Of a DNA stretch of 64,000 bases, positions 28,841 through 40,087 are shown in pieces. Source of the DNA: Propionispora vibrioides (GTDB lineage: Bacteria; Bacillota; Negativicutes; Propionisporales; Propionisporaceae); contig NZ_FODY01000021.1 of NCBI RefSeq assembly GCF_900110485.1, positions 1 to 64,000 of the forward strand, written 5' to 3'. The first letter of the stretch is position 1. Every line of letters begins with the position of its first letter. Under the pieces are notes generated by a model. The model was given only the letters and a program-made list of their open reading frames with translations. It was not told where the DNA came from and made no database searches. The position numbers and the translations under genes were made by a program.

Positions 28841-29030
28841 GTCAAGTGAATGGCTGTTAGCCTGTGGTATTCGTCACCTTTACATGTTCAACCTACAAAT
28901 TTCTAAGGGAGTCTAACGGTAGCTCTGCTGTCAAGCCGCTATAAGTGGAAGGCAAAGGCCCTGCCCGGGACACCCACCTGCCAAAAGCGGGTTTTGAACA
29001 TCGCGGGAACGGTACTATGGGCTTTTATTT
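28841..29030 (+). ncRNA. ssrS: Probable 6S RNA
   Basis: The closing stem pairs AGCCTGTGGTATTCGT (from 28859) with ACGGTACTATGGGCT (29009-29023), using several G-U pairs. A second stem pairs ATGTTCAA (28884-28891) with TTGAACAT (28994-29001). The 3' side carries GGACACCCACCTG, close to the conserved 6S segment. The long imperfect rod with a large central bulge is the shape by which 6S RNA mimics an open promoter and binds sigma-A RNA polymerase. The length of about 180 nt fits. It stands alone, with a promoter upstream and a terminator at 29059. I recognised it from stems and short conserved blocks, not from a covariance search. Confidence 0.72.
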
Positions 29031-34186: not shown

Positions 34187-35131
34187 ATGGATACAGGCGT
34201 TAGACTGCTTTACTTTGCCGCTGATCTGCTGCTGCCGTTAGTGGCCGGCTATCTTTGCTGCCGGCGCGGCTGGCTGAGCGAGCGTGTGATTGATCGGATT
34301 GTTTCGTTTAATATTGTGGTGGTCAGCACCTTGCTGGCAGCGCTCAGCTTTTGGGGGTTGACGCTGGATGCCGGCCTGGTTTGGCTGCCGGTGCTGGGGG
34401 TCGGGGTCAGCCTGATCCCCGGTCTTCTTGCTTATTACCGGTCAGGCCGGAAGTACGGCAGCGAACTGGATCAGGGCAGCTACCTGCTGGCGGCAGCCTT
34501 GTCCAATATGGGCACGGTCGGCGGGCTGTGCGTCTTTTTTATGTACGGGGAGACCGGGTTTGCCTATACCCAGTTGATGACTATGTTCTTTAATGTGGTG
34601 GTTTTCGCCGTCTGCTTTCCCCTGGCGCAATACTATTATATAAAAGGGCAGTCAGCGGCTAAACCGGTTATTTGCTGGTCGGCTGTCTTATTCAGCCGGA
34701 ACCAGTTGCCGGTTGTTGGCCTGCTGGCGGGGATGGGCTTGACGCTTGGCGGCCTGCCCAAACCGGTAGCGGTCAGTGAGTTTTTTAGTGTCCTGATTCA
34801 TTTCGGAGCCTGGACCGCGCTGCTGCCGGTCGGGTTTTCCATTAACTTCGGTGAAATGAAGAAGTATTACGTGGATATTCTCGATTTGATTCCTATTAAA
34901 TTCGTGGTGACGCCGCTGGTCATTTATTGGCTGGCCCAGGTCACGATCGGCGACACGGTGGCCGATCATACGGCGCTGGTGCTGGCCAGCACGCCGCCGG
35001 CTATTAATTCAGTGCTTACCGCTAAGATTCACAATCTGAATGTGGATATTGCCATGGCCTCTTTCGTGGTTTTGACCGTGCTGTTTTTGGCAGTTGTCTA
35101 CCCGGTGCTGTTTTTCTGGATCATGTACTGA
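34187..35131 (+). CDS. AEC-family transporter (auxin efflux carrier/malate permease type)
   Basis: This 314-residue membrane protein has about ten hydrophobic segments, in the two five-segment repeats of the AEC family. The N-terminus LLPLVAGYLCCRRGWLSERVIDRIVSFNIVVVSTLLAAL and the C-terminal LVLASTPPAINSVLTAKIHN are typical. Members carry organic acids or efflux small molecules. ATG 34187 follows TAAGGAG. No linked gene indicates the substrate. Confidence 0.85.
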   Translation: MDTGVRLLYFAADLLLPLVAGYLCCRRGWLSERVIDRIVSFNIVVVSTLLAALSFWGLTLDAGLVWLPVLGVGVSLIPGLLAYYRSGRKYGSELDQGSYLLAAALSNMGTVGGLCVFFMYGETGFAYTQLMTMFFNVVVFAVCFPLAQYYYIKGQSAAKPVICWSAVLFSRNQLPVVGLLAGMGLTLGGLPKPVAVSEFFSVLIHFGAWTALLPVGFSINFGEMKKYYVDILDLIPIKFVVTPLVIYWLAQVTIGDTVADHTALVLASTPPAINSVLTAKIHNLNVDIAMASFVVLTVLFLAVVYPVLFFWIMY

Positions 35132-35253
35132 CAGGGTGTGAGTTTAGGGAAAAAGTCAGCCAATGGCGGACTTACACAGAAAATTAAGAAAAATAACACA
35201 TAAAGTTTGTATTTGGGGTAGTAATTTATATAGAAAATTGATATAATATTAAC

Positions 35254-35462
35254 GAAGCAACGGAGCACAAAAGGGGGGTTAGCCAGTGTTTTGGCGGACG
35301 CTGGTTAATTAGGGCGAAGCTCCGTTGCGCGGTTAACTTGTAAAAAGCGTACAACCTTTAACCGGTTGGCGTTTCCGTCATCTAACGATGACCATAGATA
35401 AACCATTTCTTTTACCAATCAAGAAGTAAGCCTTGGCGGCAGCCGAGGCTTATTTTGATTTT
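35254..35462 (+). ncRNA. Unassigned structured RNA (about 210 nt)
   Basis: A TATAAT at 35242-35247 precedes a densely folded, non-coding stretch. Stem 1, GCAACGGAGC (35257-35266) with GCTCCGTTGC (35319-35328), encloses hairpin TTAGCCAG/CTGGTTAA. Stem 2 is CGGTTAA (35330-35336) with TTAACCG (35358-35364), enclosing TTGTA/TACAA. Stem 3 is GTCATC/GATGAC around TAAC (35377-35392). A terminator stem AAGCCTTGGC/GCCGAGGCTT ends at 35451. The layout is that of a free-standing small RNA, since 137 nt separate it from the next gene. It matches no tRNA, T-box, TPP, SAM, FMN, lysine, cobalamin or c-di-GMP motif that I know. The raiA-type RNA is one size-compatible candidate. Confidence 0.6.
35428..35462 (+). 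terminator. Terminator of the structured RNA
   Basis: AAGCCTTGGC and GCCGAGGCTT pair around GGCA and are followed by ATTTTGATTTT. Confidence 0.75.
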
Positions 35463-35598
35463 CCGGCGGCAACTGACTGCGGCGGGGTTCAGGTGGAATA
35501 GTACACCGCTCTGTTACTGGCGGTCGCGGGATGATACAATATAGCTATACCTGTAAGTAAAGATGATTTTAGAATGGCGGCAGAAGGAGGCTGAAACG

Positions 35599-36375
35599 AT
35601 GTTGATAGATACCCATATGCATACCCGTTATTCCACCGATTCGGAAATGACCCTGGCGGAGGCGATGGCGCGCTCGCAGGAGCTAGGCATCGGCATTACA
35701 ATTACCGATCATATGGATTTGAACTATCCCAATCCGGGGGAGTTTGTTTTTGACCTGGGGGATTACTGCAGCGAGTATGGGCCTTACCGGAGTGAAAAGC
35801 TGCTGCTGGGTGTAGAGTTCGGTCTGCGCATGGATTGTTTGGAAGCGACGCGGGAACTGGCGGGGAGCTATCCGCTGGACTATATGATTGGCTCGATTCA
35901 TGTGATTAATGACATTGATTTATACTGGGAATCCTTTTATCGCGGCCATAGCAAGCAGGAGGTCTATTCTCTTTATTTTGCCACCATGCTGGAATGTGTC
36001 AAAGCTCACGACTTTATTCACAGCCTGGCCCATATCGATTACATTTCCCGCTATGCCCGGTTTGCCGATACCCATGTCTACTATGACGAATTTAAGGAAG
36101 TCATTGATCCGGTGCTGGCGGTGCTGGCCGAGCGCGGGCAGGCTCTGGAGATCAATACCAAGCGGGTGCTGACACCGGAGTATATGGCGCTGTTGCTGCC
36201 GGTTTACCGGCGGTTTGCCGAGCTGGGCGGACGCCATGTAACCGTCGGTTCCGATGCTCACCGGGCCAGCGAAATCGGCCGGGATATGAAGACGGCTTTT
36301 GACTTTGCCGATTGCTGCGGTTTAAGACCGGTTTATTTCAAAACGGGAAAGCCGGAATACCAGGCTCGCGATTAA
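35599..36375 (+). CDS. PHP-domain histidinol-phosphatase family protein (HisJ/HisK type)
   Basis: This 258-residue metal-dependent phosphatase has the PHP motifs DTHMHTRYSTDSEM (residues 4-17), TITDHMD (about 38), GVEFGLR (about 73), IGSIHVI (about 97), HSLAHIDYISR (about 148) and VTVGSDAH (about 222). In Gram-positive bacteria this family hydrolyses histidinol phosphate in histidine synthesis, though no other his gene is near. ATG 35599 follows GGAGGCTGAAACG; the upstream frame start at 35563 has no site. No T-box leader is visible. Confidence 0.85.
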   Translation: MLIDTHMHTRYSTDSEMTLAEAMARSQELGIGITITDHMDLNYPNPGEFVFDLGDYCSEYGPYRSEKLLLGVEFGLRMDCLEATRELAGSYPLDYMIGSIHVINDIDLYWESFYRGHSKQEVYSLYFATMLECVKAHDFIHSLAHIDYISRYARFADTHVYYDEFKEVIDPVLAVLAERGQALEINTKRVLTPEYMALLLPVYRRFAELGGRHVTVGSDAHRASEIGRDMKTAFDFADCCGLRPVYFKTGKPEYQARD

Positions 36376-36496: not shown

Positions 36497-37453
36497 ATGC
36501 TACCAACAGGTGCCAACCTACAGAAGATATGGAACGGAAAGAAAACCTACGCTGTCACGCCGCATATTCCGGGCGGCTTTGTGAAAGCCGACGCCTTACG
36601 CAAATATGCCGATGTGGCGGAAAAATATGGTGCTACCTTAAAACTGACCTCGGCGCAGCGCATTATGCTCACCGGCTTAAAGGCCGAGGACGTGGAGCAG
36701 GTTTGGGCCGATCTGGAAATGCAGCCGGCGATCGGCTTTGCCAATTGCGTGCGCAGTGTGAAAATATGTCCGGGCATCGCCTTTTGCAAGCGAGGCAAGC
36801 AGGACAGCATCAAGCTGGGGCTCGAACTGGATAAACGGTATCACAAGAAGGAAATGCCCTCCCGCATGAAAATGGGAGTGGCCGGCTGTCCCAACTCCTG
36901 TGCCGAAGTGTATGTAAAGGATGTCGGACTGCTGGCGACCGATGCGGGCTGGAATGTATATGTGGGCGGTAGCGCCGGCTCGCATCCCCGTCTGGCCGAT
37001 TTGCTGATTGAGGACCTGACGGCGGAGGAAGCGCTGCACATAGTGGACATTATTGTGCGGTATTATCAAAAGAATGCCGATATTGAACGGGTTGGACAAT
37101 TTATTGACCGGATTGGCTTAAAAAAATTCAAGGCCGATGTGCTGGCCGAATTCTACAAGGGCGTCAGCGAAACCACCGAACCGCTGGTCAGCCAGTCGGC
37201 TGCCGGAGAAAAAATCATTCCTGTGGCGGGCGGCCTGACCGAAGGGACGCTGGTACTGGGTGACAAGATCACCGCCGACAGCGTGATCAGCGATATTATC
37301 CGGGTGTATCCGCAAACGGTGCCTGTCTTCCGCTCATTTGGCATGGGCTGCCTGGGCTGTCCGTCCTCGACGGGGGAAGCGGTCCAGAAGGCGGCGGAAA
37401 TCCATGGGATCAAGGTGGATGAAATTCTGGCGGCACTGAACAAGGTCATATAG
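36497..37453 (+). CDS. Siroheme-type nitrite/sulfite reductase-like protein fused to DUF1858
   Basis: This 318-residue protein combines two domains. Residues about 1-220 resemble a minimal half of siroheme 4Fe-4S nitrite/sulfite reductases, with the ferredoxin-like part (GGFVKADALRKYADVAEKYGATLKLTSAQRIMLTGL). The cluster cysteines are CVRSVKICPG (about 77-86) and GCPNSC (about 131-136). Residues about 250-318 form a DUF1858 domain (ISDIIRVYPQTVPVFRSFGMGCLGCPSS), which carries a C-x-x-C and is found in iron-sulfur and NO-related proteins such as ScdA/RIC relatives. The protein is far shorter than an assimilatory reductase, so it may be an electron-transfer or sensor form. ATG 36497 follows CAGGAGGATG. 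An FNR-type site lies upstream. Confidence 0.8.
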   Translation: MLPTGANLQKIWNGKKTYAVTPHIPGGFVKADALRKYADVAEKYGATLKLTSAQRIMLTGLKAEDVEQVWADLEMQPAIGFANCVRSVKICPGIAFCKRGKQDSIKLGLELDKRYHKKEMPSRMKMGVAGCPNSCAEVYVKDVGLLATDAGWNVYVGGSAGSHPRLADLLIEDLTAEEALHIVDIIVRYYQKNADIERVGQFIDRIGLKKFKADVLAEFYKGVSETTEPLVSQSAAGEKIIPVAGGLTEGTLVLGDKITADSVISDIIRVYPQTVPVFRSFGMGCLGCPSSTGEAVQKAAEIHGIKVDEILAALNKVI

Positions 37454-38518: not shown

Positions 38519-38752
38519 TGATTATTATGCAGTCTGTTGGGCGTGCACAAAATAATTCCGATGATTCCTTCCAAGATACGGATAAAACGAGTATAATAAA
38601 ACATAGAAAGCGTAGATAATTGGCAAAAGAGAAATCTTTTTGTCGAATCACCGGCAGTAGGAGTCGGATTGCTTACTTTTTCTGGTGATTGTTCAGGCGG
38701 TGTCCGAAGTAAGCAGTTATGAAGTGATCATATAGATAACCTTATAAGCATT

Positions 38753-38855
38753 CTTTAGCAAACCTTTTTAAAGGAAGGGACGCAAAGCCATGGGTCTAAG
38801 GATGTAAATCTATGATAGCCAGGTTGCATAACGCACCGGCTTTTTTTGTTTTTTT
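38753..38855 (+). promoter_or_regulatory. Cyclic di-GMP-I (GEMM) riboswitch with terminator
   Basis: The aptamer (38753-38831) has the conserved blocks TAGCAAACC, GGGACGCAAAGCC, GGGTCTAAGG and TAGCCAGGTTGC, which identify the class I c-di-GMP riboswitch. The 3' block is reused. GCC-GGT-GC (38818-38827) can instead pair with GCACCGGC (38833-38840), directly before TTTTTTTGTTTTTTT. Binding of c-di-GMP would hold the 3' strand in the aptamer and prevent the terminator, so this looks like an ON switch. The next genes are a zinc-ribbon protein and an unknown protein. Confidence 0.93.
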
Positions 38856-39120: not shown

Positions 39121-39412
39121 TCGCCCGGATTTGGACAAGGGGACGGTTCAGGCGATTCTCATGAACTGCTGCAGAAATCAGTGGCCAGGGCAGCTTTGCC
39201 AGTGGGCAGGCTGAGTCTTAGTGTAGCAGGAAAACGGCAGCAAACAGGGAACTATTACTAGTGGTCCATTAACATGGGCCATGCTGTTAGTTTGAAAACA
39301 TACCTGAAGCAAACGGATACTTAGCCTGTCTGTTTGTGCCGGACTTTTCCGGTCCGGCTGTGGTGGGGGCTGAATCAGCGGTTCCCCGGGAAAATCAAAG
39401 GAGATGGATAGC
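39121..39412. other. Interval between the zinc-ribbon gene and the next gene
   Basis: No gene, terminator or promoter is clear in these 290 bp. GTTAGTTTGAAAACATACCT near 39287-39306 resembles GTTTGAAAACATACCCC in the R5 repeat at 42150. Confidence 0.4.
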
Positions 39413-40087
39413 TTGGATATGCCTGCGATAATACAGGATGCGTTCAGCAGCGGTTTCTCGCTGCCGTCGGCGGCCAGCGCGGTGCCGGACATGACGCAGA
39501 CAGTTGCTACAATAAAGGAAGTATGGGATGCACAAACTTTTTCCGACCTGGTCAGCGGACAGGTCCACGTACCGGATGATGTGATCAATCAGGCGCTGGC
39601 CTCAATGCTGGAGCCCGGCGGACCGGTTACGGAAATGAAGGTTACCTCGCTAAAAAACCACCAGCTTAGAATTGAAGCGAAGACGGCCAAGGAAGGGCGG
39701 GTCGTGCTGGTCTGCACGGTGGAGCAATTAGTACATAATCAGGATCAGTCGTTGCTAACACTGAAGGTAACCGATAAAAAGCTGCCGGACAAGCCTTTCG
39801 TGTCATGGATTTTTTCCCGGGTCAGTCTGGCGATGGTGAGCAAGGTTGTGGGACACCTGGATCCCTCTTACGGGTTAGATGTCAATATTCATGGGAATAC
39901 TGTCACCATTGATTTTCGTCAGGCGCTATACAATTCCCGGCTTGGCAATTTGGAACTGTTCGGTTACCGGCCGGTGGATTATCTTACCGTGTATTCGCTT
40001 ACGCCGCAGGACGGCTTTTCCGATATCAGCACTAACCTTGCGTTGCCGGAGCAGATAAAAACAATGATTAAAAATGTTTGGTTATAG
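39413..40087 (+). CDS. Protein of unknown function downstream of the zinc-ribbon gene
   Basis: This 224-residue protein has no signal peptide. It contains beta-rich segments ([64 protein letters not shown]), resembling a lipid-binding or DUF-type beta barrel, but I assign no family. I place the start at TTG 39413, 9 nt after AAGGAG. The ATG at 39404 abuts that site, just as in the zinc-ribbon gene, and this shared layout supports both TTG starts. No terminator lies between the two genes, so it may also be under the riboswitch. Confidence 0.7.

Follow-up and report, generated by a model that had tools for sequence, protein, structure and literature searches.

The gap downstream of position 35131 in the Propionispora vibrioides window, which is the whole 64,000-nucleotide stretch of DNA analyzed here, very probably contains a real and new gene for a small structured RNA, as judged from its sequence and that of its relatives. 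The predicted gene occupies positions 35254 to 35462 of the + strand (approximately 205 nt), and its 5' domain recurs in 27 of 380 Negativicutes genomes belonging to seven families, with one convincing copy per genome. The RNA appears to be a candidate trans-acting regulator.

The gap measures 467 bp (35132 to 35598), the length given in an earlier sequence-only reading, and separates the end of an upstream open reading frame (ORF; 34187 to 35131, + strand) from the start of a PHP-domain gene (35599 to 36375, + strand; Pfam, PHP domain E 1.5e-23). Both neighbors had been named in that reading, and the PHP assignment holds; Pfam gave nothing for the upstream ORF at E 1e-3, so its label as an AEC transporter is unconfirmed. 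No + strand ORF of at least 40 aa lies inside the element, in agreement with the claim that it has no reading frame. The start at approximately 35254 is predicted from an extended -10 promoter element (TGA-TATAAT, 35239 to 35247, + strand) that lacks a clear -35. The TATAAT and the terminator noticed earlier can both be read in the sequence, but a simple promoter/terminator scanner flagged neither of them and found no good -35. The PHP gene has a -10-like box of its own (TACAATA) upstream, and the promoter-like ATGATACAATA before it is common to the window and G001, a genome of the same genus, in their alignment; the gene is probably not a cis target of the RNA. The element is present as a single copy in its own genome.

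The RNA begins with a closing stem, P1, whose 5' arm (GCAACGGAGC, 35257 to 35266) is nearly frozen in its letters across the family and pairs with the 3' arm (GCTCCGTTGC, 35319 to 35328). Between the arms lie the 5' strand of an internal loop (ACAAAAGGGG, 35267 to 35276), variable and often G-rich; the covarying P2 hairpin with its G-rich apical region UUUUGGCGGA (35277 to 35310); and the opposite, 3' strand of that loop (AGGGCGAA, 35311 to 35318), which is G-rich family-wide and of the UUGGGGGA type in family f6. A second stem (CGGTTAA, 35330 to 35336, with TTAACCG, 35358 to 35364, and an inner TTGTA/TACAA) and a third (GTCATC, 35377 to 35382, with GATGAC, 35387 to 35392) follow, and the + strand ends in an intrinsic terminator (35427 to 35462) composed of a hairpin at 35427 to 35452 and an interrupted U run, TTTTGATTTT. 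The three stems listed earlier, the first of 10 bp, were thus confirmed by reading the sequence, and the description of the RNA as structured is borne out by a + strand fold of -81 kcal/mol against -56.6 (sd 4.85) for shuffled sequences (z -5.0), with none of 200 shuffles as stable. The minus strand also folds well, as inverted repeats would lead one to expect, though less so (z -3.4). The part conserved in the family is the 5' domain only (approximately 35254 to 35330), which the third covariance model described below, R3, matches with 75.6 bits at 35255 to 35329, the window being one of the model's own sequences. The second and third stems and the terminator sequence were found only in the window species and in G002, a second genome of the genus. 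The segment 35330 to 35426 holds these two extra hairpins between core and terminator, which were not seen in G001 or the other members.

Homologues were sought at several depths. DNA similarity recovered, besides the window's own genome, only G001 and G002 (3 of the 100 genomes searched); G002 is 98% identical to the window element throughout, and G001 is alike over the first ~100 nt only and then runs into its own terminator, a comparison that defined a conserved core of approximately 72 nt. The covariance model R1, made from three sequences, matched 21 of 300 class genomes at E <= 1, of which 14 were convincing on inspection. Its successor R2 matched 23 of 380 class genomes, with 22 accepted, and the closing-helix pattern GCARCGGAGN{35,65}CTCCGTTGC, searched separately as plain text, returned 23 of the 380, namely the same 22 and G042 of family f24, against one genome of 380 for the reversed control. 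R3, made from 18 sequences, was run on a chosen 63 of the 380 genomes (38 + 25), of which three were known carriers, and brought in four from f10 with E values of approximately 2e-8, although f10 had been left out of its building. By family, the carriers number three of four in f1 (the window's family), 10 of 10 in f6, four of four in f10, one of one in both f16 and f20, seven of 12 in f23, and one of two in f24; G003 of f1, five f23 genomes, and one f24 genome gave no match. The proposal of the sequence-only reading to look for homologues in related genomes was in this way answered positively, and the RNA family is almost certainly real. A phylum-wide draw of 398 genomes searched with R2 under strict filters yielded the window's own genome only, apparently having included no other carrier, and when 33 loci upstream of PHP genes were scanned with a fuzzy motif, the complete element turned up in f1 alone. 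Several low-scoring model matches (L048-L055, L065, L120-L122) were taken as chance by eye; of the weak matches L127 to L131 (G090; G022, one of 29.6 bits on C15), only the G022 match on C13 was looked at, in the closing-helix pattern search.

The two helices of the core are constrained in different manners. P1 is a 10-bp closing stem of almost frozen sequence (GCARCGGAG/CUCCGUUGY), with seven of its 10 pairs invariant across 20 distinct sequences and only one partner changing in each of the remaining three, apart from a double change at the innermost pair in one f6 comparison. Within the family, both partners have changed in 11 of the 12 P2 pairs. The alignment A6 has 98.0% of its cells paired, compared with 31-45% when the arms are slid, and 60 double-change cells where shuffles give 17.3 (none of 500 reaching 60); with f10 included, 97.7% are paired and 74 double-change cells are seen against 22.0. 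Since both alignments were fitted to the covariance model, the structure was checked in three other ways. All 18 cores tested fold singly into P1, internal loop, and P2. Gap-free within-family alignments gave four pairs with double changes in f6 (three sequences) and three such pairs in f23 (four sequences), where the pair count was reached by 183 of 500 shuffles and the cell count by eight. In 13 of 19 cases the inner segment, taken alone, was more stable than its dinucleotide-shuffled versions (p <= 0.01), and the mean z over the cases was -3.44. P2 of the f20 member, from G022, is no stabler than its shuffles (z -0.07), and RNAalifold on a sequence-only alignment of 20 recovered P1 and not P2. 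The covarying changes that had been suggested as a check are present in P2, whose pairing is kept while its letters change, including in the gap-free alignments. In all 20 cores G makes up 45-81% of the unpaired bases and C 0-16%. A G-quadruplex was considered as a further reading and set aside, since the GG tracts, common as they are, lie far apart along the rod.

The P1 arms also form a near-perfect inverted repeat in the DNA itself, as would be expected if the element were a DNA-level repeat or part of a mobile element and not an RNA. This explanation is very improbable: each genome has one convincing copy, always with promoter and terminator attached, the covariation of P2 tolerates G-U pairs, and neither the f6 member searched against plasmids nor the window element searched against phages (both by blastn) gave a match. 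A search of viral contigs for an exact loop pattern likewise gave no match. The P1 pattern had 12 matches in IMG/VR, near the chance number by a rough estimate, and these look unrelated by eye, being without a -10 box or matching G-rich loops and lying in some cases in coding sequence; their R2 scores, which go up to 26.5 bits, reflect the selection for P1 built into the pattern. The related viral contigs L107, L110, L111, L112, and L115 have in common an inverted repeat, GCAACGGAG...CTCCGTTGC, which looks unrelated to the RNA family.

The signals around the core are those of an independent gene. A TATAAT-like box ends 5-10 nt upstream of P1 in all 27 members, the hexamer being spaced by 8-10 nt in 23 of them and by 5 nt in the four of f10, many with a TGN extension; its position would place the start 2-3 nt before P1. 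A T-run terminator was called 3' of the RNA in 27 of 27, mostly 32-51 nt after P1, although the script mis-called those of the window and G002, and the window's was read by eye at 35427 to 35462. With the terminator following so soon after the core, most members would be 110-128 nt long and the window's approximately 205 nt. An own promoter and intrinsic terminator, as expected of a small RNA (sRNA), are therefore found, as far as sequence can tell.

A cis-regulatory leader, such as a riboswitch with a terminator controlling the downstream gene, would share some of these features, since the RNA ends in a terminator and the next gene lies on the same strand in the window, G001, G050, and G008. 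This alternative is largely refuted and retains very little probability. Flanking genes vary among the families, the downstream gene being PHP in f1, in f6 either a convergent gene of the NIR_SIR type or one for a PQ-loop/SemiSWEET protein, and others elsewhere, and these downstream genes are unrelated between families. At no fewer than 11 of the 27 loci (seven in f6, four in f10, counting ORFs of at least 75 aa and leaving out doubtful f23 ORFs) the following gene is convergent with the RNA, which makes cis-regulation unlikely. No conserved link with a same-strand downstream gene was found, the PHP gene has the separate -10-like box shared with G001, and the element has no match to a riboswitch of Rfam, as the earlier reading had stated. 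Its description as free-standing accords with the promoter and terminator that accompany the RNA in these varied contexts.

Some neighbors are shared nonetheless. Among 17 loci examined, a NIR_SIR-type gene occurs near the RNA in f1, f6, and the f23 genome G118, and six further gene families near the RNA are common to f6 and G118. The shared neighbors point to one ancestral locus from which the RNA was probably inherited vertically, and the NIR_SIR linkage may be either ancestral synteny or functional. In the window, the NIR_SIR (nitrite/sulfite reductase-type) gene lies at 36497 to 37453 (+ strand) and has a C-terminal DUF1858.

Comparison with known families placed the RNA in none of them. 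No Rfam 15 family, raiA included, reached its gathering score in the element, and a loose search of 35130 to 35610 (E <= 10) gave sub-threshold chance matches only (MicC, 21.4 bits against 90; isrJ, 17 against 37), with raiA absent; 20 homologue loci had no Rfam match on the element, and loose searches of one f6 and one f23 member gave sub-threshold matches only. The raiA RNA is a stand-alone structured RNA of Firmicutes of about 200 nt. It resembles the new RNA in being stand-alone and structured, but the conserved core here is only approximately 72 nt, and of the two identities offered earlier, a trans-acting RNA or raiA, the former agrees with the promoter and terminator in varied contexts while the latter was rejected. 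The 6S RNA is likewise a stand-alone rod-like hairpin with an internal bubble, but the core of the new RNA is much shorter and without a 6S match; RF00013 matches the window only at 28856 to 29027 (+ strand, 78.4 bits), where a separate, canonical 6S gene is located.

A literature search, including Negativicutes noncoding RNA and the P1 strings, found no paper on such an RNA. Passages of two structured-RNA surveys describe Negativicutes motifs (SLH, gltD, ldh2, and others) that are cis-acting leaders (PMC6429828, PMC8632094). The present result is a covariance model, ready for use, of an independent RNA gene conserved in the class. Lying outside Rfam 15 and differing from these cis-acting motifs, the RNA is a new family of a known kind, the stand-alone small RNA, which no source searched was seen to contain and which is here limited to seven Negativicutes families.

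The favored reading, held at about even odds, is a stand-alone trans-acting sRNA whose G-rich loops would be the working surface, with Hfq-assisted pairing preferred over protein binding. P1 closes a predicted rod that continues through a purine-rich, asymmetric internal loop into P2. P1 would protect the 5' end and itself be recognized by some partner, because its sequence, and not its pairing alone, is kept; P2 would be a spacer that needs only to pair. With the aid of Hfq, the apical loop and the 3' strand of the internal loop, both rich in G, would pair with C/U-rich stretches of target RNAs and so alter their translation or stability. The RNA resembles Hfq-dependent trans-acting sRNAs in its own promoter, intrinsic terminator, length of approximately 110-130 nt, single copy, variable neighborhood, and the presence of Hfq in its carriers, but it differs in that its best-conserved part is a closed helix and its exposed loops are G-rich. 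It is unusual for a pairing sRNA to have its most conserved letters in a stable helix rather than an open seed, and the loop sequence is conserved merely as "G-rich". This pattern of a frozen-letter helix, a free-letter helix, and G-rich loops is an uncommon one and predicts a specific partner.

Among the genomes tested, all 17 carriers encode Hfq, as do 12 of 15 non-carriers, and CsrA is encoded by 16 of 17 and 11 of 15, respectively; their presence is permissive and not decisive. Some f23 genomes have several Hfq matches, including five in G126 (one with an internal stop), three in G138 (one partial), and two each in G146 and G110.

Protein binding, the main rival, is a rather unlikely alternative in which GGA-bearing G-rich loops bind and titrate CsrA or another protein, as CsrB/RsmZ do. 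All 20 cores have at least one GGA outside P1 (range 1-4), 14 of them two or more, and a compact frozen P1 with composition-only loops suits protein recognition, as does the frequency of CsrA in carriers; sRNAs that act by base pairing reportedly bind CsrA when they have at least two GGA motifs (PMC7652899). However, six of the 20 cores, including that of the window, have a lone GGA, GGA is expected anyway in G-rich loops, CsrA is also frequent in non-carriers, and the known antagonist in Bacillus is the protein FliW (PMC7652899). CsrB, CsrC, and RsmZ share with the new RNA the loop GGA motifs, the stand-alone form, and CsrA in most carriers, but they are many-hairpin repeats, and the new RNA has no Rfam match. 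A new ribonucleoprotein-type class of regulatory RNA, in which the closing helix would be read sequence-specifically while the two G-rich loops titrate a protein such as CsrA, is less likely still; if true, it would mean that CsrA has an RNA antagonist in a lineage of Firmicutes, for which the known antagonist is the protein FliW. The frozen P1 letters are explained neither by loop-target pairing nor by protein titration.

Some loops are Shine-Dalgarno-like (GGAGGAG in G126, GGGGG in f6) and might pair with the 16S anti-Shine-Dalgarno sequence, which would make the RNA ribosome-directed. This is very improbable, since the duplex energies in 16 RNAs were no better than those of same-loop shuffles (mean z -0.14 for the apical and -0.61 for the 3' internal loop, with loop borders set by eye and an assumed 16S tail sequence), so that the pairing is not above composition. 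A conserved Shine-Dalgarno target of the P1 3' arm (GCAACGGAG-ATG) was also unsupported, as the pattern GCAACGGAGN{4,10}ATG had 21 matches in 10 carriers, with none in two of the 10 and one of the 21 lying in the RNA itself; its reversed form had 14. Two further candidates in f6 were discarded: a small leaderless ORF from an ATG before P1 is not kept, the window having ACG, and pairing of the tail CCCC with the loop GGGG is not kept in other families.

Returning to the wider locus, the window has a c-di-GMP-I riboswitch (38747 to 38831, + strand; Rfam, 70.4 bits) approximately 570 bp upstream of a 227-aa ORF (39404 to 40087) without a Pfam match. A c-di-GMP-I riboswitch likewise lies near the new RNA in the f23 relatives G126 and G146 (loci L057 and L058).
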